Shown here piece after piece: positions 31,681 to 54,158 of a stretch of DNA of 64,000 nucleotides. Each line of letters begins with the position of its first letter. The stretch's first letter is position 1. Below the pieces are notes generated by a model that searched no databases, was not told where the DNA came from, and saw nothing but the letters and a program-made list of their open reading frames with translations. The stretch comes from Aminobacter niigataensis. GTDB taxonomy: Bacteria; Pseudomonadota; Alphaproteobacteria; Rhizobiales; Rhizobiaceae. The stretch lies in NCBI RefSeq assembly GCF_014200015.1, contig NZ_JACHOT010000001.1, forward strand, positions 1,240,001 to 1,304,000. The letters are read 5' to 3'. Position numbers and translations under genes: made by a program.

Positions 31681-31750
31681 GCCAAATCAAAAAACCGAGC
31701 TTTGACCACGCGGTTTGAATGCCACGCTGGAGCTGGTCGACCTAAAAACG

Positions 31751-31781
31751 AAAAGCCCCGCCACCTTGCGGCAGCGGGGCT
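31751..31781. terminator. Hairpin between the esterase and a small minus-strand gene
   Basis: AGCCCCGC and GCGGGGCT form an 8-bp stem with a loop of about 14 bases. AAAACGAAA precedes it, which is a T-rich tail for the minus-strand gene at 31787, and it may also end the esterase transcript. Confidence 0.55.
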
Positions 31782-31786
31782 CAAGT

Positions 31787-31969
31787 TCATGCCGGCAAGA
31801 CCTCACGCGCTTGCCGCCTCTTGATACTGTCTGCCTTCTTGGCCCGGTTGAGGTTTCGTTGCGCCTCGCTGCGAGCCATCCCGATCAGGTAGGTGAGAAA
31901 CGGGTCTTTCGCGAAGCGCGACAAGTCCAATGCACTTTTCAGATGTGTGACTATCTGTTTTTGAGGCAT
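31787..31969 (-). CDS. Hypothetical basic protein, 60 aa
   Basis: GGGGGAG stands eight bases before ATG 31969. The 60-residue product is basic and helical (YLIGMARSEAQRNLNRAKKADS, then IKRRQAREVLPA), with a C-terminal Arg/Lys-rich tail. The Shine-Dalgarno site and terminator-like hairpin after the stop support a real gene. No family recognised. It sits at the left border of the prophage region. Confidence 0.5.
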   Translation of the reverse strand: MPQKQIVTHLKSALDLSRFAKDPFLTYLIGMARSEAQRNLNRAKKADSIKRRQAREVLPA

Positions 31970-32149
31970 ATTGGCACTCCCCCGTGTAAGTGCAAACAGA
32001 TGCTACCACCACAGGAGCTGAACTGCTTGTCCCGCCGGGCCACGCCCCTGTGATTCATGGTGACAACTGACCTCAATTTGATGCTTAATTGGCCATCTAC
32101 ATCCCTTGTTTGATCAATATTGTTCGCATGCAAACGAATATCAGATTGG
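31970..32149. other. AT-richer intergenic region at the left prophage border
   Basis: The 180 bases are richer in A and T than either side (32090-32150, including TTGATCAATATTG). No gene is seen. The prophage's left attachment site may lie here, but no second copy of a core is within the window to prove it. Confidence 0.35.
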
Positions 32150-32449
32150 TCAGGGCAGTTTGAAGCCTCCGCCCATCATGAAGGCGACGATGGCCAGGAT
32201 GATGCCGCTGATGACCAGCTTGGCAATCCAGTTGAGGGTGCCGCTCACACCGTCGATCTTGGCGTCCAGCGTCGAGAACCGCATGTCCATGTGCTTGAAC
32301 TGCTCGTCCTTGCGCGCGTCGGCGATGTCGCTCTGACGCTGCCAAGCTTCGAGGTTCGACAGCCGCCTGTCGCTGGCCGCCGTCTGATGCTCTAATGACA
32401 CCACACGAGAACGCAGATCGCCGTCCATCTCCGTTGTCCGTTCGCTCAT
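32150..32449 (-). CDS. XhlA-like coiled-coil membrane protein (holin accessory)
   Basis: The 99-residue product starts at ATG 32449, overlapping the previous stop (ATGA). It has a coiled coil (LRSRVVSLEHQTAASDRRL) followed by a single C-terminal membrane helix (WIAKLVISGIILAIVAFMM). This matches the arrangement of XhlA, a holin-associated protein of phage lysis. It is the last gene of the late operon. The function is by layout and analogy only. Confidence 0.55.
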   Translation of the reverse strand: MSERTTEMDGDLRSRVVSLEHQTAASDRRLSNLEAWQRQSDIADARKDEQFKHMDMRFSTLDAKIDGVSGTLNWIAKLVISGIILAIVAFMMGGGFKLP

Positions 32450-32541
32450 TTCACCGCCCTTGCAGTCAGCCAGCCCATGAACAGGCCGAAGCCGATCAGC
32501 AGGACATCGTTGATTGGTATGATGAGAACCGTGGCCGTCAT
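32446..32541 (-). CDS. 31-aa single-helix membrane protein
   Basis: This tiny gene lies between two overlapping neighbours. The product is one hydrophobic helix (TVLIIPINDVLLIGFGLFMG) with a short basic end. Its stop overlaps the next start (ATGA) and its start overlaps the end of the 72-aa gene, so it appears translationally coupled. It could be a small holin or lysis regulator. Confidence 0.4.
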   Translation of the reverse strand: MTATVLIIPINDVLLIGFGLFMGWLTARAVK

Positions 32542-32756
32542 CGCTTCCACCCGCACAGCTTTTCGCCGGTGTTGAGATAGGCCAGGTGCCGCGCGGCCTC
32601 GGCGTCTGACATGGCATCGTACACCTGCTGCGAATATCGGAGATCCGGCGCGATCTCGCAGAAGCTGCCCTTGGCCGTCGTGCAGGCTGCCAGCCCGGTC
32701 AGGACGACGATCAGCAGCAGGATGCGGGGGATGATGTCGGCGAGCCGGCGCTTCAT
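32538..32756 (-). CDS. Rz1-like outer spanin lipoprotein
   Basis: The 72-residue protein has a signal and lipobox (VLTGLAACTT), so the mature form is an outer-membrane lipoprotein of about 49 residues. It ends in LNTGEKLCGW, a tail pattern I associate with small phage lysis proteins. It starts four bases within the end of the coiled-coil membrane gene (32753-32992), the usual tight packing of inner and outer spanins. The pair would fuse inner and outer membranes at lysis. Confidence 0.6.
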   Translation of the reverse strand: MKRRLADIIPRILLLIVVLTGLAACTTAKGSFCEIAPDLRYSQQVYDAMSDAEAARHLAYLNTGEKLCGWKR

Positions 32757-32992
32757 TTGCTGGCCCTCTTGGCGAGTTCGGCGCGCACCTGATCGGCCGG
32801 CATGGCACCGACGTCGTTCTGCACCTCGTCGCGGATGTCGCGGGCCTTGCCTTCCTCGGCGGCGTGCTTGGCCCGCTCCTTCTGCGCGCCGCGGCTGTTG
32901 CCCTTCAGGAACGCCACCAGTGCCGCAATCACGCCGCCCATGATCGCGAGTAGCGTCGGGTTGGAGAGGAACGAGAGGAGCAGCGTCGTCAT
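32753..32992 (-). CDS. Inner-spanin-like membrane protein
   Basis: The 79-residue product has one N-terminal helix (LLAIMGGVIAALVAFLKG) and a charged coiled-coil tail (GAQKERAKHAAEEGKARDIRD), the architecture of Rz-type inner spanins. It starts inside the last codon of the holin-like gene (ATGA) and its stop overlaps the Rz1-like start. Without a search this stays a call from architecture and position. Confidence 0.55.
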   Translation of the reverse strand: MTTLLLSFLSNPTLLAIMGGVIAALVAFLKGNSRGAQKERAKHAAEEGKARDIRDEVQNDVGAMPADQVRAELAKRASK

Positions 32993-33192
32993 TTGATCCT
33001 CGACACAAGAAGAAGGCCGAAGACGCCGAATGCCGCCATGATGGCGATGGCCTGCCATAGTGTGATCGGAAGCCAGATTGACCACAAAGCCAGCCCAATC
33101 CCGGCGGCGAGAGCCATGACCCCAAATGCTGCCACGTACGCCAGAAACAAAATCGCGCCGCCGATTGCTTGCCCGAGACCTTCCATGGTCAT
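32989..33192 (-). CDS. Holin-like membrane protein, 67 aa
   Basis: The product has two to three hydrophobic helices (GAILFLAYVAAFGVMALAAGIGLALW and ITLWQAIAIMAAFGVFGLLLV) and only short loops, as expected for a small holin. ATG 33192 overlaps the stop of the previous gene; an inner ATG at 33186 is also possible. It sits between the endolysin and the spanin-like genes. Confidence 0.55.
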   Translation of the reverse strand: MTMEGLGQAIGGAILFLAYVAAFGVMALAAGIGLALWSIWLPITLWQAIAIMAAFGVFGLLLVSRIK

Positions 33193-33362
33193 TCTCCTGC
33201 CGGCTGGTTGGGGATCTGATAGACGCCGCCGGCAACCAGAGCACCGACGATCAGGTCACGCACGACCGCATCGAGACCGGGGATGTCGACCTCGAAGTGC
33301 CGCAGACCGATCAAGGCACCGATGCCGAACGCCGCGACGAAGAATTTCGAATACTTCCGCAT
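33189..33362 (-). CDS. 57-aa membrane protein of the lysis module
   Basis: The product starts at ATG 33362 just after the endolysin stop. It has two moderately hydrophobic segments (FFVAAFGIGALIGL and IVGALVAGGVYQI) joined by an acidic stretch. It may be a holin or antiholin; the family is not recognised. Confidence 0.5.
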   Translation of the reverse strand: MRKYSKFFVAAFGIGALIGLRHFEVDIPGLDAVVRDLIVGALVAGGVYQIPNQPAGE

Positions 33363-33364
33363 GG

Positions 33365-34063
33365 TCAGTGTCCTTTCTTCGAGAAGAGCGCGGCAATCGC
33401 CTTGCCGATGAGTTGCAGCCAGAAGGCCAAGCCCTTGGCGAGTTCGGTTGTTTGCGGTTTCTGCAAAGAAGGTTCGGCGGGCGCTGGAGCAGACATGACC
33501 GGCTTCGTGGGCTCGGGCTGGACAGGTTGGCCGACAGCCACCCTCACCCGGTCGAGCAGCGCCTCGACGGTCTCCGGCTTGACTAGCGACTTGTTGAGGC
33601 CGTCGCCGGCATAGAAGGACTGGCCACGCGAAACCTTGCGACTTCCCCCCTGTGTCGGCGCCAGCACAGGCAGCGAGGCCCATTCCTTCGCCAGTCGCTT
33701 GCCGAACTCGCTGCGGCTGATCTTGCCGGCCATGAAGGCTTCGTAGCCACGACGCTTGAGCAGGTGATAGCCAAGCCGGTCTTGAAAATCGGCGTTGAAG
33801 ACCGGGGCACCGGACAGGTGAAGCTCCTTCGACAGGTCTATCAGCGTCGCCCGCATGAACTGGTAGCGGCCGGAGGCTGACGACCTGAAGCGCCTGGTCC
33901 AATTCTTCTGCTCGTTGATGATGTCGCCGAGCATCATCGTGGTCAGCGGCTTCGGGAGTTTGCCCTGGTTGTTGCCATAGATCGTGTCGTAGCCGCGAGG
34001 CGCTTCAATGCCGCCGATGAAGTCGAGCAGAAGCGCCGCTCCGGTGGGAACGGTTATGTCCAT
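33365..34063 (-). CDS. Endolysin, lambda-type lysozyme/transglycosylase
   Basis: The 232-residue protein has the lambda endolysin pattern in its first 150 residues: GGIEAPRGYDTI with Glu20 as the likely catalytic acid, SASGRYQF, then QDRLGYHLLKRRGYEAF and an Ala-Ser-Leu-Pro motif (WASLPV). It would cut glycan strands at lysis. A Pro/Ala-rich linker leads to a C-terminal hydrophobic segment (LAFWLQLIGKAIAALF). That tail is unusual for lambda R and may tether the enzyme to the membrane. No separate signal peptide is seen. It sits upstream of four membrane genes of the lysis module. Confidence 0.75.
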   Translation of the reverse strand: MDITVPTGAALLLDFIGGIEAPRGYDTIYGNNQGKLPKPLTTMMLGDIINEQKNWTRRFRSSASGRYQFMRATLIDLSKELHLSGAPVFNADFQDRLGYHLLKRRGYEAFMAGKISRSEFGKRLAKEWASLPVLAPTQGGSRKVSRGQSFYAGDGLNKSLVKPETVEALLDRVRVAVGQPVQPEPTKPVMSAPAPAEPSLQKPQTTELAKGLAFWLQLIGKAIAALFSKKGH

Positions 34064-34128
34064 GGTGGTTCCTTTTCAGATTGTAGGGAGTGTGTTACCC
34101 GACCCAAGGAACTTACTTGGGGGGACTC

Positions 34129-34800
34129 ATGAGAAATCTACTGCTTGCAGCAGGTGTGCTTGCACTCAACGTCGGAACGGCCGCAGGACAAGATCAGGTC
34201 TATGACTGGGCGGGCGCTTACATCGGCCTGCAGGCGGGCCACGGTTGGGGGGATGCGGACCACGTCACACACTCCGCGACACTGTTCCCGTTCACCCACA
34301 ATGATATCGATGGTTTTGTGGGTGGTGCCTATGTCGGCTTTAACCATCAGTTCCCCAATAAGATCATCGTAAGCGTGGAAGGGGATATCGCTTGGACTAA
34401 CTTGCAGGGTGGACCAGATCTGTCAGTCAACGCTGCTGGCATCCCGGATGGAGCTGCAACCGCAGAAACCGACGTGGAATGGACCGGTGCTGTTCGTGCC
34501 CGGCTGGGGTACTCTGTCGGCCGCGTCCTACCTTACATCGCGGGTGGGTTAGCTATCGCGAAGGCAGATACGAATAGCTCCCGCGGCATGTATAATGGTC
34601 AGGTACGTGATGTGTTGGCCGGCTGGACGTTGGGTGGCGGTGCTGAGTACGCGGCGACTGATCAGCTAGTGATGCGCCTTGAGTATCGTTACAGCGATTT
34701 CGGACGCGCGAGCGCGACCACATATCCTCCCGTAAATGCACTCCAATCACTCGACCTCAAAACCCACGATGTACGCTTTGGCATCGCCTACAAGTTCTGA
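34129..34800 (+). CDS. Omp25/31-type outer-membrane beta-barrel protein (phage cargo)
   Basis: The 223-residue product has a signal peptide (LLLAAGVLALNVGTAAGQ) and an eight-strand barrel: YDWAGAYIGLQAGHGWG at the start, VEGDIAW, WTGAVRARLGYSVG, YIAGGLAIA, GWTLGGGAEYA, MRLEYRYSDFG and a terminal aromatic F. This fits the Omp25/Omp31 family. It faces opposite to the late genes and is flanked by convergent endolysin, with a 6-bp hairpin (CCCAAG/CTTGGG at 34103-34121) just before its ribosome site. It may alter the host surface in the lysogen, for example to block another phage. This is inference. Confidence 0.8.
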   Translation: MRNLLLAAGVLALNVGTAAGQDQVYDWAGAYIGLQAGHGWGDADHVTHSATLFPFTHNDIDGFVGGAYVGFNHQFPNKIIVSVEGDIAWTNLQGGPDLSVNAAGIPDGAATAETDVEWTGAVRARLGYSVGRVLPYIAGGLAIAKADTNSSRGMYNGQVRDVLAGWTLGGGAEYAATDQLVMRLEYRYSDFGRASATTYPPVNALQSLDLKTHDVRFGIAYKF

Positions 34801-35061
34801 CCTCCGAACGATCGGCCACGCAATGCTCCATTGAGATGTCAGCCGCAAGTGGGCGGCTTCAGTGGCAGGTCAGAGTTGTTGAGGCTTGGCTCAATGAAGC
34901 GGATGCGCCGGATCTGCGTCAGCATGCGCGCGAAAGCGCTCGACGACCTGAAGAACGTCTGCGCAAGAGTTGCCCGCCTGAGATTGAACTGATCGGATAG
35001 CGATATCTGGCGATATCTGGTATCCCGCCCGCAGGTTGGTTGACTTGATGGGAATTCTGAC
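34801..35061. other. Gap between the two plus-strand cargo genes
   Basis: A possible 54-residue ORF (34836-35000) begins at ATG 34836 and looks protein-like (EAWLNEADAPDLRQHARES), but has no ribosome site. It may be a remnant of a coding gene. After it the 10-mer CGATATCTGG is repeated in tandem (35001-35020), each copy holding the palindrome GATATC. This could be a control site for the next gene. Confidence 0.35.
35001..35020. repeat. Tandem 10-base repeat CGATATCTGG (two copies)
   Basis: Two identical copies lie 42 bases ahead of the GTG start of the methyltransferase-glycosyltransferase fusion. The GATATC centres suggest dimer binding. No other copies were noticed in the region. Confidence 0.5.
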
Positions 35062-36303
35062 GTGCGCTTTAAAGAAGCTTTTGAGAACCATTACGACAGC
35101 CAGATTCAGCTATCACCGTTTCAGGCACAGTTAATTGGGTCAGCGATAAAGTCGCGGTCGCCTGGTTGCCGTCTTCTGGTTTTCGGCGTGGGCTACGACA
35201 CCCCGTTGTGGCTGTCCCTCAACGATGACGGTGAGACTCATTTTCTCGAAAGTTCATCCGAGTGGATAGACGTAGCTAGGGCGAAGACGCCCGAGATATC
35301 CGTCAGCCTTCTGCCGACATTTGACTTGACGGTTGAGAAAACTGCTAGCCTCTCGGGGTCTGACCTTTCAAAGTTCCCCCCGCCGAGAGAACTTACGCAG
35401 CAACAATGGGATGTGATTGTTGTCGACGGCCCGCCCGGTTTCTCCCCGGGCGACCCGGGGCGCGCCATCGCAATCTATTGGGCATCGGTCCTTGCTTCGC
35501 CAAGCTCGCACGTTTTCTGCGATGACTATGAGCGCCCACTAGAGGCGCGCTTTGCGAACGAACTACTTCGCGGACGTCCTGGCTCGTCATCCTATGTGTT
35601 TCCCGCCAGCGACAATATTCCGTACCGTAAGCTCTTTTGGTCGGCTGGCTCACCTCTGCCTACGGCGCCTTCTGCCAACAGACCCGTGGTGCTTTCAATC
35701 GCTACACCGGACTATGCCATTCGCTGGCGTTTTTGCATCGACAGTCATTATTCCTATTGTCGCCGACTTGGGTACGAATATCAGATGGTCGACCCAAGTC
35801 ATTATGCGCTCCATCCGAAATGGGCAAAGCTCGAAGCCGCCGTGTCATGTCTGGAGGGCGGGCATGACGTGCTCCTTATTGATGCCGATGCGGAGATTGA
35901 CAAACGCTGCCCGCGGTTCGCCGATTTGTTTGAGCAATCTCCAAGCGTCGATATTCTTTCAGTGAAAGGTATTTCGGGCCGCCCGAATTCCGGAGTGCTC
36001 GCACTGCGCGGCGGTCAATCTAGCGTCGCTGCGACATTTCTGAGGGAATGCCTGGCCCGAAGAGAGGAGCCTGTTCCAACCGAAGACTTTGTGACCGAAG
36101 AGGGAGAAAACGGTCACGTCATATGGCTGTTGAAGCAGGCTCGATTTGCAGAACGCTCCGGAGATTTGCCCCGATTTTGGAATTGCTCGGACCCGGAATC
36201 AGCTGAGCAGGCGTATGTCCGCCACTATACAAATCATCTTAGAGATCATCTCGAACATATTCAGTTGCTCGGCGTCTCTAACGCGGCCAATCGAGATTCG
36301 TGA
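35062..36303 (+). CDS. DUF579-type methyltransferase fused to a GT-A-like glycosyltransferase (phage cargo)
   Basis: The 413-residue protein starts at GTG 35062. Residues about 36-170 follow the DUF579 family (plant glucuronoxylan 4-O-methyltransferase type): RLLVFGVGYDTPLW, WDVIVVDGPPGF, PGRAIAIYW and HVFCDDYERPLEARF. From about 208 a second domain begins (VVLSIATPDYAIRW), with a DxD-type site (DADAEID, 274-280) and NSGVLALRGG, as in GT-A glycosyltransferases. It is on the plus strand, lower in GC than its neighbours, and its 3' end overlaps the tail fibre gene by 43 bases. It probably modifies a surface sugar; the target is unknown. Confidence 0.7.
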   Translation: MRFKEAFENHYDSQIQLSPFQAQLIGSAIKSRSPGCRLLVFGVGYDTPLWLSLNDDGETHFLESSSEWIDVARAKTPEISVSLLPTFDLTVEKTASLSGSDLSKFPPPRELTQQQWDVIVVDGPPGFSPGDPGRAIAIYWASVLASPSSHVFCDDYERPLEARFANELLRGRPGSSSYVFPASDNIPYRKLFWSAGSPLPTAPSANRPVVLSIATPDYAIRWRFCIDSHYSYCRRLGYEYQMVDPSHYALHPKWAKLEAAVSCLEGGHDVLLIDADAEIDKRCPRFADLFEQSPSVDILSVKGISGRPNSGVLALRGGQSSVAATFLRECLARREEPVPTEDFVTEEGENGHVIWLLKQARFAERSGDLPRFWNCSDPESAEQAYVRHYTNHLRDHLEHIQLLGVSNAANRDS

Positions 36304-38231
36304 TCTTTCAGCTTAAGCCACATGGCATTGCAGACGACGGCAACCATCTCCATGGCGAGCCACTTCCGGGACGCCAGCTCGCCGATCGAGAGGCCATTGT
36401 GTTCCCAATCAGCCTGCGTCGGCATGCCGGGCAACGCTTCTTCGGCTCGCATTTTCGCGAAATACTGCTCCGGGTCGCGCGGATCAAAACCCGCATCGCA
36501 CATGGCCTTGAAGATGCGCGCAGTGCCGTGGATACGGGGTACGATAGTTGCAGGCGTCACGACTTCTTCGAATAGCGGGTGCTCCACCACGCTGATGCCA
36601 TTGCCATTCTCATCCCAAACCGGGATCAGATCGGCGGCCTGGACCGTAACGGTCTCGTATGTCTCGATAAAGCGTCGAACGAGACCACCATCTTCTGCCA
36701 CTTCGTCGAGAGCGCGAACAACTGGCACCAGCCGATCCACCATCACAGGGACATCTTCGCGACTTTCGGGCACTTGAATGTCCGGGACCATGGCGTCCCA
36801 CTTCGCGATATCGATCTCGCCATTCTCGATAAACTCCTTCGACATCGCCATGCAGGTGAGCAAGCTGTTGTCGTCGTATACGGCGCCGAAATTTATGGTG
36901 TTGTCGCCCTTGTCTCCGCCTGTCGCTGAAGGGTGAAACAGGCCCAACAGTATCCGGAGCCGCTCAACCCTGGAATTACCTACGGTGGTAGCAGTCTCAA
37001 ACCGAAGCGACGTTCCAGCGCCCGCACCGGCGCTCCAATCGTGCGAAGAAAATGCAGCAACGGCGGCCCCATAATTATAGGCGCTGCTCTTCTGGCCCCC
37101 AAAAAAGAAGATGCCAAGGCGCTGATCAGCAGCGTTGATGTTGCCCGCCGCAACCAGCCCTACCCCACCACCTGAGCTAGAACCCAACGCCGTTGTGCCA
37201 ACGAACCGGCCATTCGACGCGGCGACGCTGGACGTGCACTCAAACTTGGCGTCCACCGGTGCGGCACCAATACCAATCTTGCCGTCGAAATACAGACCAT
37301 CAGTGTTCAACAGCGGCACTACGTCACCGCTGGTTCCGACATTCTTCGCGGCAGCAGTTCCAAGGGACGATGAGTTGGCCTTCTCTCCGTCGAGCTCCTG
37401 AATAGCAGTCTGGACGTTCGTGGCCGAAACGTTGCCGGCGGGTGTAAATACGATCGAAGCAGCCGTCCCGCCACCAGATGAAGAAATGACGGGGTGGGCC
37501 GGGTCGCTGCTGTCGACCGTTACATTGGAGCCGGCGACTACCGACTGCACCACACCCGGCGCGCCTGGCGCGCCATCTGCCCCCTTGGCCGCGGTCACTT
37601 CCCAAACCGTAGCCCAATTGGCGCCGACGCCCGGCTCTGTTGATGCAGCAGAGGTGTGCGGCACAAAGCAGCGGTAAGACGTACCGTCGTGCACCAATCC
37701 GTCGTTATATTCGTAGGCAGTCGCGGCAGCCCAGCCAGCGTCAACCCAGTGCAGCGTCCCCCCCGGACCTGCGGGGCCAGTAAGACTAAAAGGCCCATCC
37801 CAGCCGCTGCCTGTGCGCTTGTAGATGTCTAGCCCATAGCCGATCTCCACGCGCAGCCACAGGAAGCCTGCAGCAGGCACAGGCGACAGTGCATCGCGCT
37901 CTGCCAACGTGCCAGCGCCATCGGGGTGGATGCCGGCCAGCGACAGTTTGGTCAGGATCTGCGCCAGCCGGTCGTTGATCCATGCAGCGCGCACCGCTTC
38001 CGAAGTCTCGCGGGCAATGGCGTAGGCGCCGGCTGCCGAAGCGTCGGGCCACGGATAGGCGAGCGTGAGCGACGTGTCGCTCTCGACGCTGGCGATCGGC
38101 ACCGACATGCCAGCGAACGAGAACATGCCGCCGGTAACCAGCGCCACACTCCAAGCCGTGCCCGTGCCGGTCACAATCGCCGAGCCGTTCGACACGGAGA
38201 CCGTGCCGGCCGAATAAACCGAAGATGTCAT
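36261..38231 (-). CDS. Tail fibre/collar protein
   Basis: The 656-residue protein is the last tail gene. The N-terminal part (about 1-110) is Ser/Thr/Gly-rich with repeated beta strands, as in fibre bases; a collagen-like bit (TGPAGPGG, KGADGAPGAPG) follows, then a predicted fibre shaft (STSVAASNGRF type). The C-terminus (about 470-656) is helical and acidic with a predicted coiled region (KLKDHESRLAALE), often used for trimerisation. It is the likely adhesin. Its last 43 bases overlap the opposite-strand fusion gene. Confidence 0.75.
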   Translation of the reverse strand: MTSSVYSAGTVSVSNGSAIVTGTGTAWSVALVTGGMFSFAGMSVPIASVESDTSLTLAYPWPDASAAGAYAIARETSEAVRAAWINDRLAQILTKLSLAGIHPDGAGTLAERDALSPVPAAGFLWLRVEIGYGLDIYKRTGSGWDGPFSLTGPAGPGGTLHWVDAGWAAATAYEYNDGLVHDGTSYRCFVPHTSAASTEPGVGANWATVWEVTAAKGADGAPGAPGVVQSVVAGSNVTVDSSDPAHPVISSSGGGTAASIVFTPAGNVSATNVQTAIQELDGEKANSSSLGTAAAKNVGTSGDVVPLLNTDGLYFDGKIGIGAAPVDAKFECTSSVAASNGRFVGTTALGSSSGGGVGLVAAGNINAADQRLGIFFFGGQKSSAYNYGAAVAAFSSHDWSAGAGAGTSLRFETATTVGNSRVERLRILLGLFHPSATGGDKGDNTINFGAVYDDNSLLTCMAMSKEFIENGEIDIAKWDAMVPDIQVPESREDVPVMVDRLVPVVRALDEVAEDGGLVRRFIETYETVTVQAADLIPVWDENGNGISVVEHPLFEEVVTPATIVPRIHGTARIFKAMCDAGFDPRDPEQYFAKMRAEEALPGMPTQADWEHNGLSIGELASRKWLAMEMVAVVCNAMWLKLKDHESRLAALETPSN

Positions 38232-38240
38232 GATTTGCCC

Positions 38241-39905
38241 TTAGAGGCTGAGGGGGATGGCGAGGACGTAGTAGCGGATACCAACCAGCGATGGGCCGTT
38301 TTGCGGGCTCGCCGTGTACGGATCTCCGAGGGTTGCATCCTCCAATTCGATGCGCCACGGCTGTCCACTGGACTGATAGACGTGCAGAGCGTCGTCGAAG
38401 ATCTTGCAGTTGATCGAGCAGCCGGCGGGCTTGTTGTTGTAGAGAAACGCGTTGTTGACGCTGCCGAAAATCCGGTGCGTTCTGTTGAACACCGACCGGT
38501 TGGAACCGTCTGACCACCGCGCAATCATCTTCGGAAAAGGTAGGAAATCGCCGTTGGGGTTATCGACAGCGATTACTGCCTTCTTCGCCCCCAAGAAGGC
38601 GTCGTCCGTCGTGCCGAAATCTGCAGCTGCAAGCCAGCCTTCCGCGACAATAGGGATCGCAGGCAACCGGCTGTCGAGGATGATCTCGTTCAGCCCCGGC
38701 GCGCTGTCCGACGAGCCTGGCGTCTTCAGCTGGATGTAATCGACCGATCCGTCATTGCTCTTGTGAAAGACCTTCGATCCGCCTGTCGTCGGCGCGGAAT
38801 TGTCGTCGGCGTAGACGACATAGCGCATGTTGAAGTTCTGATCGCCGATGTTGTTGACGGTGATCCTGTTCTCCCCAATGACAGGGACGTAGTTGAGCTG
38901 AATCCTGTTTGTCCTGGACGTGCCAGACGGCAGAAATGGCGGGTGGTAGAACTGCGCCTCCGACGTGCGCTTGACTATGAAGTCGACATAGGTGCCGAAT
39001 GTTACCGGCATCTTGGTCGGAATGTCCGCCGAGGCGCCCGAGTTGATGGTGATCTGGCCGGCGCCGATGACCTTGGCCGGTACACGCTCGCTGCTGAAGA
39101 TGAAGGCGTCGTGATCACCCTCGGCAACGTCATGCCCGGGATAGGCCATCTTCACCGCATCCGGCGCGATGCGCAAAACCTTCTGACCCTCCACGGGTGT
39201 TCCCGCATAGGAGGGCAACGGCACGTTATCGATGGGCAACTCGAAGACAGAGTGCAACTGGCGAAACCGGTCGCCGCCGCCGCCGAGAGCATGTGGTGAA
39301 AGGGTAGTGGCAAAGTTGTTGAATTCGTTGATGCTGTAGCCGAACAGGCTGTAGTTCCGCCTGTTCAGTGTGATCACGGACGACATGCTGACTCTCGCGT
39401 CGTCTCGGAACCACGTCACACCCGTTAGCCTGCCGCCGACATATCCCGACTCGTAGGCGCCGCTGCTTCTGACGTTCACCGGCGAGTACGAATTGCTGAC
39501 GCCGTCGAATCGGTTTTCAGCAATAGTGAACCTCCGCGTCTCGATGAGGGGTGTGTATGCAAAACCGAGATTTTCAGGGAAGATTATCTGCGCCTGCATT
39601 CCGTCGGTGATGCTGCCATTGTTGCGCAAGGCGTAGACCACAAGGAGCGCGTTGACCGATGTGCTCCCCGAAGGCTCGTAATATGTGGCGGTCGCGCCGT
39701 CGGCGGCCGGCTTCGGCCACTTCGTCAGATCAAAGCTGATCTCCATCACGTCGAAGACGTAGCCGAGCTTGTGCGCCCATTCGCTGTCGAAGATGTATTT
39801 ATGCCAGTCGGTCGACGGCGTCGTCAGCGGATCGTCGCCGTCGTTTTTCATCACCTTCAGCACCGGGCCGACGCCGGGCTTCAGCCCCATGAACCAGCGC
39901 GTCAT
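38241..39905 (-). CDS. Tail-associated structural protein, 554 aa
   Basis: The protein is beta-rich and soluble with no signal. It starts just inside the end of the J-like gene (39902-39905 overlap), in the position of tip-attached proteins. Segments such as RLTGVTWFRDDARVSMSSV and ENRITVNNIGDQNFNMRYV suggest beta domains. I do not recognise a family. It is probably a structural component or adhesin of the tail tip. Confidence 0.65.
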   Translation of the reverse strand: MTRWFMGLKPGVGPVLKVMKNDGDDPLTTPSTDWHKYIFDSEWAHKLGYVFDVMEISFDLTKWPKPAADGATATYYEPSGSTSVNALLVVYALRNNGSITDGMQAQIIFPENLGFAYTPLIETRRFTIAENRFDGVSNSYSPVNVRSSGAYESGYVGGRLTGVTWFRDDARVSMSSVITLNRRNYSLFGYSINEFNNFATTLSPHALGGGGDRFRQLHSVFELPIDNVPLPSYAGTPVEGQKVLRIAPDAVKMAYPGHDVAEGDHDAFIFSSERVPAKVIGAGQITINSGASADIPTKMPVTFGTYVDFIVKRTSEAQFYHPPFLPSGTSRTNRIQLNYVPVIGENRITVNNIGDQNFNMRYVVYADDNSAPTTGGSKVFHKSNDGSVDYIQLKTPGSSDSAPGLNEIILDSRLPAIPIVAEGWLAAADFGTTDDAFLGAKKAVIAVDNPNGDFLPFPKMIARWSDGSNRSVFNRTHRIFGSVNNAFLYNNKPAGCSINCKIFDDALHVYQSSGQPWRIELEDATLGDPYTASPQNGPSLVGIRYYVLAIPLSL

Positions 39906-42376
39906 GCGAAAGTTTCGATGCTGGCGTTGGTGCCGGCACCCTTGATCTGGAGCTTGTTGTTGGCCGAACGCAGTTCCTCGACAATCGCCAAACCGATGCG
40001 CGCTACCTGCAGCTTCAACTCCCCACCCTCGAACACCAGCGGCTGCCCTTCGGTCGTTCCGTCCGTGACGACAAACTGGTCGGCTTTGACCACGAACCGT
40101 GAGAACGGCTGCATCGGATCACCTCCGACAAAACCGGCTTCCCACATGGTCGCCGCCGACACCCAGTCGTCACCGACCGTTGCGCGTACCTGCATGACGA
40201 TCTGTGCGACGACATCACCGCTGCCCGCTTGTGCCGTCATGCGCCAGAGACCGCCGGCGGATAGGTCGCCGACAGAAGCTTCGACTGCAGTCACGGCACC
40301 CGCCAAAGCCAGAAGCTCACCGTCGATCTCTTCGACCGAGGCCGACAGGCTGGACATCGCCGTTGCCGTCGCATTGCGGAACCGGACGGCAACCGAATTC
40401 TCCTCGGCCACCACGCCAGCCGCGTCGGATGCGGCAAGCGCGATCTGCTCAAGGCGAGCCCGGATATCGTCGGCATCCTGCGCCATTTGCAAAAGGCGCT
40501 GATAGATGTCGGCCTTGACCTGGCCAAGCCCGACCGAAACCGACGGCAAGGCCGCTTCGGGCGTCGACACGGTCGCCCATGCCGTCCAGAACGTGGTGCG
40601 CACCGGCGAGGTCACCAGACGGTGGCGATACTCATAGTCAGCATTGGCCAGCACGCCGTCGCCTGTCACCAGAACCTGCACAGGCACGTCCGCCCGCTTC
40701 ACGATGCTTTCCGCGGCACCATCAGGCCGATACTCGATCTCGACGGCCACAACCGTGATGTCGTCGAAGGCATCCCACGTGAAGCGGATCCCCGGAATAC
40801 GCTCGGGTGAACCGGCATTGAGCACCTGCACGCCCGAGGCGAGGAAGTTGCTGGCAGCAGTGGCATAGCTGCCCTCGCCCGGTGCAGTCGGTAGCACTGG
40901 CGTGGTGGTGTATTCGGTCGGATCGAAGATGCCGGCGCCGACTTCCTGCAGTTCCAGATAGATGTTGCGGGCGCCCTGCTGGCCGAGCGCGCCAAGCCGC
41001 TTTTGCCCGATCTGGAACCTGCGGTCGCCATGCTTCGCCGAATTCCAGCGAACCCAGCGGCCGGGAGGCGTGCGATCGAGGAACCTCGGGTGCAGGCAGA
41101 TGGCCGCATTGGCTTGGAACCGGCTCGCCTTGATGGCGATGTCGGCCAGGCGGTCGGCCACCTTCGCGTCATTGACCGCGCCATAGGGGATCGACGCAGC
41201 CAGCCGCTCACGATCCTCGGCAAGGGCGGCCTCGTCGATGCGCGTGGCGAAGGGCACGGTCTCGTAGAAGCTTTCGGGGTCGCGCCAGGTGCCCGCAACG
41301 GTGTTCACCAGCTCCGACCGCGTGCGGTATTTCGAGAACCGGAAGGGCTCGTCGATCATGATGTCGTCGTCGGTGAAGGTCGCCACCACCGCCTGTTCGG
41401 CACCAACGAGCGGATACTCGCCCGAGGCGTCTTCCACCCATGTCGCGGCGCACGCCTCGAGCAGCGGCTGCATGTTGGCGTCGTGGCTGACGCCATTGCC
41501 GGCTGCCGCGATGATACCGGCCTTGTAGCGGCGACCGCTGCCGATGAACTCGTCGCAGATGTTGGCCGCGACCGTCCACGGGCCAAGCGGCAGGCGTGAA
41601 GCCGGCACGCCCTTGCCGACCATCAGTTCGGTGCCGTTGTAGAAGCCCCGCTCCAGCGCATACATCATCAGCACCGGGTTTTCGGAGAACTCCCAGGTCG
41701 ACTGATCACTCCACCGGTGCGAGCCGTCCCCGCCGACGCTGGTATCTTTGCGCCAGTCATAGAGCGGGGCGCCCTGGATCTCGTAGAAGCCCTGCCAGGG
41801 CTGCTGCATCTTCTCGCGGTCGAGCGTCTGGGTGGCCACAGCATAGGCGACGCCGGCGCCGCGATGTGCAGCGGTCCAGCGCGTCGGCGGGTTGGCGTTG
41901 GCGATCAGCCCGGCATCCGCGGCCTGGTCCATGGTGCCGATTTGCACCTTCTGCCAGATCGTCCCGTTGATGCCCTGCACGCGCAGCCCACGCAGAGCAT
42001 CAGGTGCGCCGCCGAGAAGCCGCCATTCCCCCTCCGCCCGAACCCGTGTCACGCCTGTGATGCGAAAATGCGAAAGGACATAGACGTCCTGGATGCGGCG
42101 GTTTCCTTCGCCATAGGCGTTGCGATAAATGTGGTGCCCGGCAGTGCCGACCTTGCCGAGCGCGACGGAGCGCGGCATGTCCTCGCCATAGCTGGTCTGC
42201 AGCTGGACGGCCTGCGCCTGCTGCTTTGGCTGGAAGATGGCACCGAGTGCGTACTTCAGTGCAATGCCAAGCCCGAGGCGTGCAACGCCGGCAAGAATCG
42301 TCGAGCCGCCCAACCAGCTGAACGCGCCGGTGACAGCGCCGCCGATCGCGGTGAAGATCGGTGCGAGAAAGCCCAT
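39902..42376 (-). CDS. Tail-tip host-specificity protein (lambda J-like)
   Basis: The 824-residue protein starts with a hydrophobic Gly/Ala-rich stretch (FTAIGGAVTGAFSWLGGSTIL), then the J-like opening (SYGEDMPRSVALGKVGTAGHHIYRNAYGEGNRR) and later fibronectin-like beta parts (VQVLVTGDGVLANADYEYRHR). Such proteins form the tip that meets the host. The gene stops with a 4-base overlap with the next structural gene and begins after the DUF6950 gene. The C-terminal part contains an Ala-rich helical stretch (about residues 640-700). Confidence 0.8.
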   Translation of the reverse strand: MGFLAPIFTAIGGAVTGAFSWLGGSTILAGVARLGLGIALKYALGAIFQPKQQAQAVQLQTSYGEDMPRSVALGKVGTAGHHIYRNAYGEGNRRIQDVYVLSHFRITGVTRVRAEGEWRLLGGAPDALRGLRVQGINGTIWQKVQIGTMDQAADAGLIANANPPTRWTAAHRGAGVAYAVATQTLDREKMQQPWQGFYEIQGAPLYDWRKDTSVGGDGSHRWSDQSTWEFSENPVLMMYALERGFYNGTELMVGKGVPASRLPLGPWTVAANICDEFIGSGRRYKAGIIAAAGNGVSHDANMQPLLEACAATWVEDASGEYPLVGAEQAVVATFTDDDIMIDEPFRFSKYRTRSELVNTVAGTWRDPESFYETVPFATRIDEAALAEDRERLAASIPYGAVNDAKVADRLADIAIKASRFQANAAICLHPRFLDRTPPGRWVRWNSAKHGDRRFQIGQKRLGALGQQGARNIYLELQEVGAGIFDPTEYTTTPVLPTAPGEGSYATAASNFLASGVQVLNAGSPERIPGIRFTWDAFDDITVVAVEIEYRPDGAAESIVKRADVPVQVLVTGDGVLANADYEYRHRLVTSPVRTTFWTAWATVSTPEAALPSVSVGLGQVKADIYQRLLQMAQDADDIRARLEQIALAASDAAGVVAEENSVAVRFRNATATAMSSLSASVEEIDGELLALAGAVTAVEASVGDLSAGGLWRMTAQAGSGDVVAQIVMQVRATVGDDWVSAATMWEAGFVGGDPMQPFSRFVVKADQFVVTDGTTEGQPLVFEGGELKLQVARIGLAIVEELRSANNKLQIKGAGTNASIETFA

Positions 42377-42379
42377 GCG

Positions 42380-42796
42380 TCAGCCGACCTTGAATGCGGT
42401 TTTGATTTCGGTCTGGGGATAGAAGGCCAGCCCGGCTTCGACCTTCACAGCCAGCCCGCGCTCGGTGATGAAGCCAGCGGCCAGCACGCCTTCGCGCTCG
42501 ACAACGCCGACATCGCCACGCTGTGCCATCAGCCGGCCGACAGGCGGGAAGAGCTTGGCGAGCACCGCTTCGACATCAGCGCACTTGCGCCGGCGCATCA
42601 GCTTGGCCGCGCCCAGCTCGCTCGAATACGCCCCGCGGATCCTCGTGGCAGGATCGACGCCAGTGACGGCCTCGACAGCATCGGCCACCGTCAGCAGGCA
42701 GTCGGCGACGCCCCATTCGCCAGGCGTCTCGAGGTGATGCTCGACGACAAGCGCGAGCCGTCGCTCCCAGTCCGGGAGACGCTGCAGTTTCAGCAT
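42380..42796 (-). CDS. DUF6950 tail-assembly protein (lambda K-like position)
   Basis: The 138-residue protein follows DUF6950: EWGVADCLLTVADAVEAVTG, RIRGAYSSELGAAKLMRR and GDVGVVEREGVLAAGF. The Cys in WGVADC and the phage setting next to J recall NlpC/P60-like gpK, a peptidase used in tail-tip assembly, but no complete catalytic triad is certain. It overlaps the upstream 50-aa gene by 7 bases. Confidence 0.7.
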   Translation of the reverse strand: MLKLQRLPDWERRLALVVEHHLETPGEWGVADCLLTVADAVEAVTGVDPATRIRGAYSSELGAAKLMRRRKCADVEAVLAKLFPPVGRLMAQRGDVGVVEREGVLAAGFITERGLAVKVEAGLAFYPQTEIKTAFKVG

Positions 42797-42942
42797 GATG
42801 ATGCTAGCGCAAGTTGAGGCTGCGAAGTTGTCGGCAGCGATAGAAACTGCTCTGCGTCAATGATCAAAACGGGCTTCGCGTTGCGCTCAACATAGGCCAT
42901 TCCGCTACCGAGCAGCATTTCGTTGGCGGTTTTCATGTCCAT
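42790..42942 (-). CDS. 50-aa phage protein of unknown function
   Basis: A small ORF starts at ATG 42942 (MDMKTANEML). It is followed without gap by the DUF6950 gene, whose start lies in its last codons. The product has a beta-like centre (RNAKPVLIIDA) and polar tail. It fills a gap in the tail operon and may be a small tail accessory protein. Confidence 0.45.
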   Translation of the reverse strand: MDMKTANEMLLGSGMAYVERNAKPVLIIDAEQFLSLPTTSQPQLALASSC

Positions 42943-42950
42943 CGCGAACC

Positions 42951-43514
42951 TCAGAGCTTGATGTCGAAATATTCGGACTTCACGCGGCTGGCGAACTCGA
43001 AGAACTTGTCGCCAGGCAAAACCAGTTGCTGGTCTTCGTGGCTGGCAGAGCGGTAGCCGTCGCGGTGGTTGTCGATCGCGCCCGAAATCACATTACCGAC
43101 GAGCTTTAACTCGCCGCCCTCTGTGACGTGGTCGATCGTATCGCAATAGCCGTAGACCATCGGCTCGACATGCAGCATCACCCGCGTGTCGGGATCGAAA
43201 TAGGCGTCGTAGACCGTCAGCGGACGGCCCTTGTAATCTTCGCTCTCGATCAGCAGCAGCTTGTCCGGCTCCAGCCCGAAATCGCGCTTGGCCGTCAGTT
43301 CCACCGAAAACGTCGCCGCCGCAGTGCCAACGCCATAGACCGGCTCGGAAATCGATATCAGCGTCGACGGCCAATATGTCAGGCCACTCCACACAAGATC
43401 GGCGTTGCCGTTCCAGAAGCCATAGGTGCCAGTGCCGCATTCGATCTTCATCAGCGAGCGGATCACCGCCCGCCCCTCGTCCAGAACCTGTTGCAGGCGT
43501 GTCGGAAAGGTCAT
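42951..43514 (-). CDS. Tail protein, lambda L-like position (DUF2163-like)
   Basis: The 187-residue protein sits between the M-like gene and the DUF6950 gene, the place of gpL. Features are TGTYGFWNGNADLVWSGLTYWP, a central beta part (AAATFSVELTAKRDFG) and a late MVYGYCDTIDHVTEGGE. The pattern recalls DUF2163-type proteins of gene transfer agents and siphoviruses. The start overlaps the upstream stop by four bases. Confidence 0.65.
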   Translation of the reverse strand: MTFPTRLQQVLDEGRAVIRSLMKIECGTGTYGFWNGNADLVWSGLTYWPSTLISISEPVYGVGTAAATFSVELTAKRDFGLEPDKLLLIESEDYKGRPLTVYDAYFDPDTRVMLHVEPMVYGYCDTIDHVTEGGELKLVGNVISGAIDNHRDGYRSASHEDQQLVLPGDKFFEFASRVKSEYFDIKL

Positions 43515-44119
43515 TTCGGCACCTCGACCAGCGTGAAGGATGCAGCTGGTAGATAGTCGTCAGGCATTGAGCCAGAACCCGAGAGCATGCGGGTATTGAG
43601 TTCGAGGTCACGGAACTTCACTTCGGCGCCTGGCACGATGTATTCCGGAATGGCAGGCTCGACGGTCAGGCTGATCGCTCCAGCCGATGCCACCGCCCCA
43701 ACCATGACCCGATGGAGCGATCGATAGTCGCCGCTCTTCAGGCTGATCAGATCGCCGCGGCGCAGGTCCAAGCCGTTGGTGACGCTGCCGACGGCGATGA
43801 TGAAGCCATCGGTGACCGACACCAGAGAGCCTGTGTTGCTCAAGGCGGGGTTGGCTTCATCGCCCACATAAGCCTGTGGCACCTTGAGGTACTTCGGCGC
43901 AAAGAGGACAGTCTCCATGCCGGTGCCGGCTTCTTCGAGGAAAGCCCGAAAAGCAGGCGCGTGCTCAGCGACGAGCGGCCCGGTCTCAACTTCAATCCGC
44001 CAGAACGGGTCAGCGTACTCGACAAACGCCACTGCCCGCTGACCGGCCCGCGAGACCGAGGTCGACCGAGCTATCTGAGGCAAACCTTTCACATAGGGGA
44101 CGGCAGGAAAGCCGATCAT
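43511..44119 (-). CDS. Distal tail protein, lambda M-like
   Basis: The 202-residue protein follows the tape measure gene with a 4-base overlap, which is the normal place of gpM. It is beta-rich (QRAVAFVEYADPFWRIEVETG, LRRGDLISLKSGDYRSLH) without signal or membrane segment. It would cap the tail tube and join the tip. No independent family match is claimed. Confidence 0.65.
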   Translation of the reverse strand: MIGFPAVPYVKGLPQIARSTSVSRAGQRAVAFVEYADPFWRIEVETGPLVAEHAPAFRAFLEEAGTGMETVLFAPKYLKVPQAYVGDEANPALSNTGSLVSVTDGFIIAVGSVTNGLDLRRGDLISLKSGDYRSLHRVMVGAVASAGAISLTVEPAIPEYIVPGAEVKFRDLELNTRMLSGSGSMPDDYLPAASFTLVEVPK

Positions 44120-46404
44120 GCCAATCCCCTTGTTTTGATCTCGCGAAGGGCTTTCACGACACGTGGCGTGAAATCCTTGTCCGCGAACTGCTCCAATGCC
44201 TTGGTCACTTCTTCTGAAGTGTCTCCACCACCGCCCTGGATGCTCACAACCGGCGCGAAGTTGAAGTTGGCCTCGACGGGCTGGTTATTGTTGGCAGCGC
44301 GGCCAAGCATATGGTTCGGCACCACCTGTTCGCCGCCGCGGAACCGCACCAGTTCCGGCCCACGTTCGCCGACCATTGCCACACCTGCCCGCGCCGAGGC
44401 CGTGCCATCGGCATAGCCCCGAAGACCAGCCCACGGATCGGAGCCGCCGCCACCAAGCCCAAGGAGCGAACTGAGGAGGCCATAGCCACCGGTCGACCCA
44501 CCGCCGAACAGCATGTCGAGCCCACTGTCGAGCAGCTTGGATGCGATCTTGCCGAGCGCATTGACGGCAGCATCAGCGAAGGACTTCCACAGGCCCTCGC
44601 CGTTCCGTAGACCGTCGGCAAAGTCGGTGAAGAACCCTCGCGAAGCATCCTGCGCAAAGTCCAATGCGTCCTGCGCATTCACCGTCGCCGCTTCGATGGA
44701 AGCCATAGAGGCCGCTAGGGTGGACAGTTCGCTACGCTGGGCGGCGGTAAGCTCGATGCCCTTACGCTGGGCCTCGTTCAGCAGGTCCGTTTCGTAGGCC
44801 AGCTTTGCAGCAGCCTCCCCTGTCAAGCCAAGGGCGGCCTGTTCTGCCATGAGGCTGGCTATACGGAGGTTTGCGCCATCGACGATGTCGGAGTACTTCT
44901 CTGCCTCCGTCTTGCCGCCGCTCTTCTTCTTGCCCTTCTCGTCGACGGTCGTCATCCAACCGGCGAGTTCCTTGAGCTTGCCGGATGCAGCAGAGGCGCC
45001 GTCGCTAATCGCGGCCCCGAACTGACCAAGGCGATCTTGACCCATGATGCGATCGTACTCGGCAAGCTGGCCCTTGTTAGCCTTGGACAAGGCATCGGCA
45101 TACGGATTGGCGAGTTCCTTCATGGGAGAGACAGGCCCGATCGACGCCATCGGCTCCATGCCAAGTGCCTCTGCCGCAGTGTTGGCTTTTGCAATCAGCC
45201 AATCAATCATGGCGGCCGCATTCTGGATCATCAGGTTCATCCCCTTGATCACCAGATTTGCGGCACCGAATGCGGCGGCCCCAACGATCGAAGGTAGATT
45301 GGCCCACATGAACTTGATGTCGGAAAAGACCATCTCGAATGAGTTGATGATGAAATTGCCGGCAGTTTTCATGATGCCGACAACGTCGACGCCGATCGCG
45401 GCTTTGATCTCATCGCGGAGCAAGTAGGCCGCCGTACCTACTGCGGAAATTCCAGCGATCAACCAACCGATCGGGCCTAGTGCCGCCAGCCAGGCAGTGG
45501 TGAATGACCCCGCAGTAGCGAGCGCTGCTACGCTGATGCGCGCCAAGAGAGCGATTATGCTCACCATCCCGGTCACCATCGCGGGGGCATAGATCAAGGC
45601 CAGAGCGGCGGCCGCCATCGTGGCATATGGGGCAACGGTCTCAAGCGAAGCGGCCAAGGCACGAATTACAGTGGCGCCAAGCTTTGCCCAATCAACCATT
45701 TGAATTCCAGCCGCGATCAGCGTGATGGTGGCGATGACAAGCAAACTGACCGGCGAAATGACTGAGAGCAGGGCGGCGCCGATGCCCTGAAGCGGCTTCT
45801 CCATCTGGGCAACAACCGCCGCGACCTGGGTGCCCTGCTGCAATCCGATCTGGAGCGCGCCCATACCCATTTGAGCGGATACGGCGATGTCTTGCCACTG
45901 TGCAGCAAGATTGCCGACGTTGGCCGCACCGGAGCCCATCACCCTGAAATTCTGGTTGGCTGCAGTGGTGTGGAGACGGGCGGCATTGGCTGCTCTAGTT
46001 GAAGCAGCGGCTTCCGCATCCATAGCCGCTGCTGCCTTCAATGCTGCCGACGCATCACGAGAAGCCGCTACAGCGGCGGCATGGGACGCGCTGGCTCGTG
46101 CATGGTCAGCCTTTGTCACCTCAAGCGCTGCCTTCGCCAGACGCTGGGAGGCCATCGCCGCCTGTACGTCAGCCCGCGTTGCATTTTCCGACGCACGCGC
46201 GGCCGCCGTCCTCGCTACTGATTCCTGATATGCTGCTCGGGCCGCCGCCACCGCTGCGGCACTCGCGTTCTTGGTCGCCGCGGCAACGCCATTGGCGGCA
46301 GCCTGCGCGCGCCTGGCCGAGTTTGAAAGCTGATCGAGGGAGATCTTTCCCTTGTCGACCTGGCTGGAATCAACGGCCAAGCCGAGTGCGGCCACATCGG
46401 TCAT
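44116..46404 (-). CDS. Tail tape measure protein
   Basis: The 762-residue protein is the longest helical protein of the tail run. It has an Ala-rich coiled-coil region (about 25-200: SASHAAAVAASRDASAALKAA), two or three hydrophobic helices (about 205-330) and a C-terminal part with APVVSIQGGGGD. It follows the G/GT chaperones, as in lambda gpH. It sets tail length and is released at injection. By length, the tail would be roughly 110-120 nm if the usual 0.15 nm per residue holds, which is a family rule of thumb. Confidence 0.85.
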   Translation of the reverse strand: MTDVAALGLAVDSSQVDKGKISLDQLSNSARRAQAAANGVAAATKNASAAAVAAARAAYQESVARTAAARASENATRADVQAAMASQRLAKAALEVTKADHARASASHAAAVAASRDASAALKAAAAMDAEAAASTRAANAARLHTTAANQNFRVMGSGAANVGNLAAQWQDIAVSAQMGMGALQIGLQQGTQVAAVVAQMEKPLQGIGAALLSVISPVSLLVIATITLIAAGIQMVDWAKLGATVIRALAASLETVAPYATMAAAALALIYAPAMVTGMVSIIALLARISVAALATAGSFTTAWLAALGPIGWLIAGISAVGTAAYLLRDEIKAAIGVDVVGIMKTAGNFIINSFEMVFSDIKFMWANLPSIVGAAAFGAANLVIKGMNLMIQNAAAMIDWLIAKANTAAEALGMEPMASIGPVSPMKELANPYADALSKANKGQLAEYDRIMGQDRLGQFGAAISDGASAASGKLKELAGWMTTVDEKGKKKSGGKTEAEKYSDIVDGANLRIASLMAEQAALGLTGEAAAKLAYETDLLNEAQRKGIELTAAQRSELSTLAASMASIEAATVNAQDALDFAQDASRGFFTDFADGLRNGEGLWKSFADAAVNALGKIASKLLDSGLDMLFGGGSTGGYGLLSSLLGLGGGGSDPWAGLRGYADGTASARAGVAMVGERGPELVRFRGGEQVVPNHMLGRAANNNQPVEANFNFAPVVSIQGGGGDTSEEVTKALEQFADKDFTPRVVKALREIKTRGLA

Positions 46405-46463
46405 GCTTTACCTCTTGATCGCCATCTGTCTATCGTCGCCGCCCGTTGAACGAGGAGGTTCGA

Positions 46464-46745
46464 ATGCGAATACTGTTCTTGCTGGCTGTACTGATGAGTA
46501 GTTCGGCGCTCGCGGAGAGCACTGACGAAGCGGTCAAGAAGACCGTGTTCAGACTCACAACTGCTTTTCAGTGCGCCCCAATTATCAAGGACCAGGGACC
46601 ATACGAATGGGCCAAGAAGAACGCAGCCGAACTCGTGGGAAGCACCAAGGCAGCCGAACTGGCCGCGCACGTCGAAGGCCAAAGCCTCGACGGTAGCCCG
46701 CTAAACGAGAAGTTCTGTCGCAAGATGCTGGAGAACTTCAAGTAG
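46464..46745 (+). CDS. Small secreted protein, 93 aa (phage cargo)
   Basis: GAGGAGG stands seven bases before ATG 46464. A signal peptide (ILFLLAVLMSSSALAES) is followed by a 75-residue acidic-basic mature part with two cysteines (FQCAPII and FCRKMLENF) that could pair. It is on the plus strand, between the tape measure and the chaperone genes, and converges with the latter with an 8-base overlap. No family is recognised. It is likely a moron acting in the periplasm. Confidence 0.65.
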   Translation: MRILFLLAVLMSSSALAESTDEAVKKTVFRLTTAFQCAPIIKDQGPYEWAKKNAAELVGSTKAAELAAHVEGQSLDGSPLNEKFCRKMLENFK

Positions 46746-47474: not shown

Positions 47475-47489
47475 GCGTGATTTCCTTGA

Positions 47490-48257: not shown

Positions 48258-48292
48258 CGTGGTTTCTCCTTTTCAATGGCTGGCATGAAAAA

Positions 48293-48310
48293 GGCGGCCC
48301 GAAAGCCGCC
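48293..48310 (-). terminator. Strong intrinsic terminator inside the late operon
   Basis: On the minus strand GGCGGC, TTTCGG and GCCGCC form a 6-bp GC stem, followed by TTTTT. It lies 36 bases before the major tail gene. It would cut late transcripts unless the phage makes an antiterminator. Confidence 0.65.
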
Positions 48311-48323
48311 TGATGACCCGGAT

Positions 48324-48358
48324 GGCCGGGAATGACAGTGCCGGTTCCAATCCCGGCC
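48324..48358. repeat. 8-bp inverted repeat beside the lipoprotein gene
   Basis: GGCCGGGA (48324-48331) pairs with TCCCGGCC (48351-48358) over a 19-base loop. It is directly upstream of the plus-strand lipoprotein gene. Confidence 0.4.
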
Positions 48359-48379
48359 CGGCCTTGTTAGGCTGCCCAG

Positions 48380-50715: not shown

Positions 50716-50729
50716 GGGGAGACAGCCAA

Positions 50730-52249: not shown

Positions 52250-52252
52250 GAG

Positions 52253-54157: not shown

Positions 54158-54158
54158 G

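Follow-up and report, generated by a model that had tools for sequence, protein, structure and literature searches.

A prophage gene of Aminobacter niigataensis predicted to join a DUF579 methyltransferase to a GT34-like glycosyltransferase

The fusion gene and its prophage

The window, i.e. the whole stretch of 64,000 nucleotides that was analysed, carries at 35062..36303 on the + strand a gene for a polypeptide of 413 amino acids in which a DUF579 methyltransferase half precedes a GT34-like glycosyltransferase (GT) half. It is a single unbroken frame that comprises 413 codons, starts with GTG at 35062 and closes with a stop codon ending at 36303; six codons separate the upstream in-frame stop from the GTG, none of which is ATG, GTG or TTG. 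The motifs GVGYDTPLW, VDGPPGF, PGRAIAIYW, CDDYERPLEARF and DADAEID, on which a first-pass annotation of the sequence had been based, are all found in the protein, and its claim that both halves belong to one protein was borne out by the single frame and by the occurrence of the same fusion in five other genomes, which together rule out a sequencing join or a frameshift. The gene is present in one copy in its own genome.

The surrounding DNA is a prophage, as the first-pass annotation had proposed: terminase, portal, capsid, tape measure, J-like protein, fibre and endolysin genes were recognised with PHROGs, and an integrase-type gene (PF00589) lies beyond the window. The corresponding IMG/VR entry of 56,029 bases starts at window position 31681, so that the portion inside the window spans 31681..64000; the 12,620 bases compared show no difference from the window. 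Calculated from the length of this entry, the prophage ends at about 87709, where the integrase-type gene also ends. The longest word shared by the left and right flanks has 15 bases (31439/89993) and lies off the predicted ends, and no att sites are claimed. The prophage is siphophage-like and carries DnaB besides the integrase-type gene.

The fusion gene is oriented opposite to the late genes and occupies a cargo slot between the fibre and endolysin genes. The tail fibre gene (36261..38231, − strand; phrog_24607 tail protein, E 8e-20, and tail fibre families) is convergent with it, the 3′ ends overlapping by 43 bases, and the gene of the central tail fibre J-like protein is found at 39902..42376 on the − strand (phrog_5616, E 2e-183, and phrog_31). 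The other end of the slot is formed by the endolysin gene (33365..34063, − strand; phrog_90, E 3e-35). A second likely cargo gene, encoding an outer-membrane beta-barrel protein (34090..34800, + strand; PF13505, E 3.5e-18), is placed between fusion and endolysin, and has 15 other matches in the host genome, the best at 48%. The GC3 of the fusion gene (0.56) is close to that of the neighbouring beta-barrel gene (0.59) and lower than in the fibre gene (0.69) or in the genes for J-like protein and endolysin (0.79). A search of 33900-36600 for sigma-70-like promoters gave no site. Separately, the tail fibre protein encoded at 36261-38231 contains a stretch resembling a carbohydrate-binding module (CBM_5_12, 25.7 bits, just under the cut-off of 26.2).

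The methyltransferase half

The N-terminal half (residues ~12-171; 35095..35574, + strand) belongs to PF21729 (IRX15_IRX15L_GXM), of which we take DUF579 to be the older name. A Pfam search with the first 208 codons gave E 5e-26, which confirms the family named in the first-pass annotation and rules out a chance motif; the half scores 91.8 bits and the whole protein 89.4 bits against a gathering cut-off of 27.8. TIGR01627 is matched as well, at 85.7 bits. This is below the curated NCBI cut-off of 149.85, and the half was not filed under that family. The predicted structure (pLDDT 91.9) has a class I SAM O-methyltransferase fold with O-methyltransferases as structural matches, and both motif I and the acidic residue after strand 2 that mark class I SAM methyltransferases are present. 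The putative SAM-binding motif FGVGYD (35182..35199, + strand) is well conserved, with F41, G42 and D46 invariant in 24 aligned rows and G44 nearly so. A profile search of solved structures with the DUF579 half found no related chain.

The plant GXM and IRX15/IRX15L proteins are members of the same family, and the N-half shares with them a score far above the Pfam cut-off; unlike them, it stays below the TIGR01627 cut-off. The plant proteins are described as Golgi enzymes acting on xylan (PMC3921138, in part), whereas the present domain is prophage-borne and fused to a GT. According to the available part of the same report, plant GXMs methylate glucuronic acid (GlcA) on xylo-oligomers, and free GlcA and UDP-GlcA were not methylated (PMC3921138).

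The glycosyltransferase half

A linker predicted with low confidence (residues 185-202; 35614..35667, + strand; pLDDT <50) leads to the C-terminal half (residues ~207-408; 35680..36285, + strand), for which a GT-A fold had been suggested and for which structure matching of the model gives a clear GT-A fold. The family search proposed for both halves succeeded for the N-half with PF21729, but not directly for the C-half: its C-terminal 205 codons matched no family in Pfam (maximum E 10), NCBIfam or PHROGs, and a single-sequence phmmer search against the PDB gave weak, unconvincing matches (E 0.016-0.68). Only a profile built from relatives of the C-half matched a GT34 enzyme, xyloglucan xylosyltransferase 5 (XXT5, E 1.2e-4). 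The best solved fold is domain 1 of chlorovirus A064R, and the XXT1 fold was also matched. Members of GT34 (PF05637; xyloglucan xylosyltransferases, GMA12/MNN10) have the GT-A fold and the DxD motif in common with the C-half, here as DAD (35881..35889, + strand), a putative metal and nucleotide-sugar site in which D274 and D276 are invariant in the alignments, as is H388, the putative metal-binding histidine late in the domain. Unlike GT34 members, the window domain has no direct Pfam match, and because PF05637 is not matched directly we file it as GT34-like only; its distant relatives L008, L047 and L048 exceed the PF05637 cut-off. In the GT tree the window domain clusters with the other fusions (support 83/38), and it groups with the GTs of T4-like contigs with support weaker than the starred level. 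Since the deep forks of the DUF579 tree are weak, we claim no number of joining events.

Relatives in bacterial genomes and gene transfer agents

The fusion is not peculiar to one phage, as had first been supposed, since it is found in five more bacterial genomes and its halves recur as split pairs in T4-like contigs (see below). Four of the five bacterial relatives, from Methylobacterium segetis (L014), Afipia massiliensis (L015), an Afipia MAG (L016) and M. oxalidis (L017), show 56-58% identity over 394-407 amino acids, and the fifth genome (G1165) is from the family of Afipia. In all five the fusion lies beside a gene for a DUF2793 protein, presumably a spike or fibre, and in four it is visibly next to g15 of a gene transfer agent (GTA) of the RcGTA type. 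On one strand of M. oxalidis, a g15-type protein with GTA_TIM, Phage-tail_3 and Rcc01698_C domains is followed by the DUF2793 protein, the fusion and a phage lysozyme; the order is the same in M. segetis, with g15 at 82% and the DUF2793 protein matched by BLAST, so that in Methylobacterium the fusion is co-directional with both genes. In A. massiliensis the fusion and the DUF2793 gene point towards each other and overlap by six bases, and next come g15, NlpC/P60, baseplate hub, tail tube, head completion and HK97 capsid genes. The Afipia MAG locus matches this arrangement, and the sequence of G1165, in which the DUF2793 gene is found at 93%, does not extend as far as g15. In RcGTA, the head spike fibre and the tail fibre bind capsular polysaccharide, according to the part of the report available (PMC10218006). 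Whereas the fusion thus adjoins RcGTA-type genes in Afipia and Methylobacterium, the prophage of the window does not belong to this type: it carries an integrase-type gene and DnaB and has no match to the g15 or DUF2793 proteins. For g15, the window gave no match at E 1e-6 with the Afipia or Methylobacterium protein, nor with that of Afipia at 1e-3.

An outer-membrane beta-barrel gene is also located within the Afipia GTA structural cluster (L116:15523-16374), as another is beside the prophage fusion (34090-34800); a shared receptor-decoy role of the two is conceivable.

The fusion relatives are under purifying selection, with dN/dS of 0.17-0.22 in four pairs among them; pairs with the window gene are saturated for dS. 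The gene is rare, being present in 1 of 61 genomes with its own included (absent from all 60 relatives). PF21729 occurs in 2/397 genomes of the order and 2/398 of the phylum, and the C-half in 4/397 of the order, own genome included in each count. Among 111 Methylobacterium genomes two have the fusion and a third a GT match only; among 198 genomes of the family of Afipia there are two with the fusion and two more with a GT match only. A scan of genome contigs with the window protein alone gave no match, and a peptide-pattern scan returned 22 loci, 4 fused and 18 without DUF579 in frame, which is not a census as a single peptide pattern served as query. Gene calls in all fetched regions are simple frames.

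Split pairs and other combinations in viral contigs

Besides the window's own prophage, ten IMG/VR contigs carry a relative of the C-half, and in nine of them a DUF579 gene is located directly upstream. These pairs comprise five distinct DUF579 and seven GT sequences (one cut by a contig end), and the two genes share four bases in six loci and a single base in the remaining three, which are identical. For L043, PHROGs named terminase, ssDNA-binding protein, UvsX, UvsY and a DNA helicase, the last being UvsW by our own reading. UvsX and UvsY genes, 75-100% identical to those of L043, lie upstream of the pair in all nine contigs, the pair coming after uvsY, and the helicase gene is 3′ of it in all four contigs that are long enough. 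The tenth contig (L039) has the same UvsX/UvsY and a GT without adjacent DUF579. The interval between UvsY and helicase also contains Methyltransf_24 and cytidylyltransferase genes, GT8 (L043), a sulfotransferase and FkbM (L037), several genes without Pfam match and a pyruvyl-transferase-like gene at 20.0 bits, below its cut-off of 25.3. A tblastn search with the window protein and both L043 proteins found no match among 50,697 records of named phages (E 0.01 and 1e-4), so that the pair is known only from uncultivated contigs and the window prophage.

The interval between uvsY and the UvsW-like gene forms a glycan cassette in L043, where it holds eleven genes as simple frames, and likewise in L037, L041 and L038; a Pfam search with eight of the L043 cassette genes at E 1e-3 left four of them without a match. 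In L050, L053, L064 and L070 the site after uvsY also begins with DUF579 (in L070 after one extra gene) and is followed, judged by eye, by different GT-like genes, as in a modular glycan slot.

Single viral proteins of 900-1290 residues combine still more domains. Two of them, of 900-990 residues (L047:6339-9302 and L048:6600-9323), have GT25 or, in one case, an RXYLT1-type domain, GT8, DUF579 and GT34 in a row; the third (L049:6129-9995) has two DUF579 domains with Stealth and capsule synthesis matches below the cut-offs. In a bacterial protein (L071) GT2 is joined to DUF579. Fusions, split pairs and multi-domain proteins together indicate that DUF579 and GT activities have repeatedly been brought together. 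In a survey of 24 DUF579 loci besides the window's own, a GT of this family was matched strongly in two (the large fusions L047 and L048), weakly in two (L057, L070) and not at all in the other 20, within the DNA fetched. As a separate observation, genome G123 encodes a 1017-aa protein (L011:58-3111) with GT61, this GT domain and an FkbM methyltransferase, and also has a separate DUF579 gene (L003).

The cargo slot in related prophages

With the J-like protein as query, 50 of the family's 247 genomes gave a match, the window's own among them. The fusion is absent from all 18 related prophage regions fetched, of which 16 have a readable slot, the contigs of L093 and L101 ending in or just after the fibre gene. 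At least five of these 16 slots hold another enzyme that could act on glycans between fibre and endolysin: Acyl_transf_3 together with a sulfotransferase just under its cut-off (L092), Acyl_transf_3 (L096), Hexapep (L102), Methyltransf_11 (L108) and Capsule_synth (L095). This count is a lower bound, as Pfam was run on eight informative-looking slot proteins only; by eye, no such enzyme was seen in the other 11. The endolysins of the slots were identified by eye, save for those of L092 (GH108) and L095 (65% to that of the window), and none was recognised in L094 or L103. As in the window, the cargo gene opposes the late genes in L096 and L108, as does the sulfotransferase-like gene of L092. The suggestion that the fusion gene modifies a surface glycan gains support from this setting and from the acyltransferase-3, hexapeptide, methyltransferase and capsule-synthesis genes in some sister slots; acyltransferase-3 proteins are membrane acyltransferases suited to cell glycans. 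Seroconversion cargo of prophages includes O-antigen acetylases and glucosyltransferases, and the fusion gene has in common with it a variable slot occupied by acyltransferase-3 and other transferases. To our knowledge the known examples are single-activity enzymes, and no transfer-plus-methyl-cap fusion was found among them in titles and abstract starts of the open-access literature.

Discussion

The sugar that the enzyme probably adds and caps would be one recognised by phages or carried by them, and the presence of both halves in one chain fits the original idea that one protein could do both. We propose, with moderate confidence, that the fusion gene is prophage cargo encoding a soluble two-step enzyme that adds a sugar and O-methylates it, altering a host surface glycan read by phages. 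The GT-A half, with its DAD metal site, would transfer one sugar from a nucleotide sugar onto a glycan built in the cytoplasm, and the DUF579 half would use SAM to O-methylate the added sugar and so cap the chain. Placed between fibre and endolysin, such cargo would alter the surface polysaccharide read by the fibres of the phage, which may exclude related phages and keep progeny from re-binding debris. What the analysis shows are the two predicted folds, the conserved SAM and DxD motifs, the single chain, its recurrence, purifying selection among the relatives and the transferase slot; catalysis, the order of the steps, acceptor and phenotype are inferred.

The closest studied analogue, absent from the first-pass annotation, is A064R of chlorovirus PBCV-1, which combines two rhamnosyltransferases and a 2-O-methyltransferase in one chain acting on the capsid N-glycan, as described in the available part of the report (PMC9614988). 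GT and sugar methyltransferase are joined in one viral protein as in the fusion, for which the sugar acceptor is putative; unlike the fusion, A064R contains two GTs, places the methyltransferase at the C-terminal end and targets a capsid N-glycan (PMC9614988, in part). Transfer followed by methylation is the favoured order because the A064R methyltransferase is described as acting on rhamnose added by a domain of the same protein (PMC9614988) and plant GXMs as acting on GlcA of xylo-oligomers (PMC3921138). The other genes found in the slot, together with the glycan cassettes, favour a cell-surface acceptor; in the part of their report available, the authors of a pelagimyophage study likewise inferred a cell-surface role for GT genes (PMC7029224).

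Several observations speak against the host-surface reading. The nearest GT of solved structure has the capsid glycan of its own virus as target, the Methylobacterium gene runs in the same direction as particle genes, the region around the window gene yielded no sigma-70-like promoter, 11 of the 16 readable sister slots showed no such enzyme, and two of eight other viral DUF579 loci (L058, L063) have no obvious glycan genes nearby. T4-like phages are, as far as is known, lytic, in which case lysogenic conversion cannot apply to them. The first two points would suit an enzyme that glycosylates and methyl-caps the tail fibre or spike of the phage or GTA itself, tuning receptor binding, stability or protection; this is the main alternative, which we consider rather unlikely. 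Its case would draw on A064R domain 1 being the best solved fold for the modelled C-half and on the A064R target, reported as the virus's own capsid N-glycan (PMC9614988, in part), as well as on the fibre-type neighbours that the fusion has in two unrelated tail systems, the siphophage-like prophage and the GTA clusters, where all five other copies lie beside the DUF2793 gene. The membrane acyltransferases and the capsule-synthesis gene of the sister slots suit cell glycans instead, and the T4-like pair after uvsY has no adjacent fibre genes within the DNA fetched.

It is improbable that the gene serves life in soil or with plants by editing a host exopolysaccharide, plays no part in phage adsorption and is just tolerated at the fibre side: GT relatives do occur in polysaccharide loci of bacterial replicons and the low GC3 suggests recent import, but the fusion lies beside phage or GTA genes in six of six genomes and GT-DUF579 pairs are present in phage contigs. 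Still less credence is due to the view that the gene is decaying or inactive and at present serves no function, to which the rarity of the fusion, missing from all 60 relatives and all 18 related prophage regions, might point, since the frame is intact, the motifs of both halves are conserved and the relatives have dN/dS well below one, the window gene itself being too distant for dS.

Phage-borne glycan-modifying cargo is as such of an already known kind. In the open-access literature we found no report of DUF579 in phages or GTAs, nor of a DUF579-GT34-like fusion or of its link to fibre loci, the DUF579 papers listed there being on plants; this is weak evidence of absence, as subscription papers were mostly outside the search. 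What the fusion adds is that sugar transfer and a methyl cap appear tied in one chain which recurs beside fibre-type genes in unrelated particles. A further-reaching proposal, which we regard as speculative and doubtful, is that phages and GTAs have an enzyme dedicated to adding and methyl-capping a sugar on their own receptor-binding fibres, a bacterial-virus counterpart of A064R, and that plant xylan methyltransferases are part of a superfamily in which the main role of the bacterial members lies in the conflict between phage and host over glycans. If true, the A064R counterpart would be represented by the paired genes of T4-like phages, by the fused gene of alphaproteobacterial prophages and GTAs, and within multi-GT fusions. 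The fusion offers a way to ask which glycan, that of the cell or that of the particle, decides infection or the receipt of GTA DNA, and the small soluble bacterial DUF579 proteins may provide material for studying a family of plant cell-wall enzymes.
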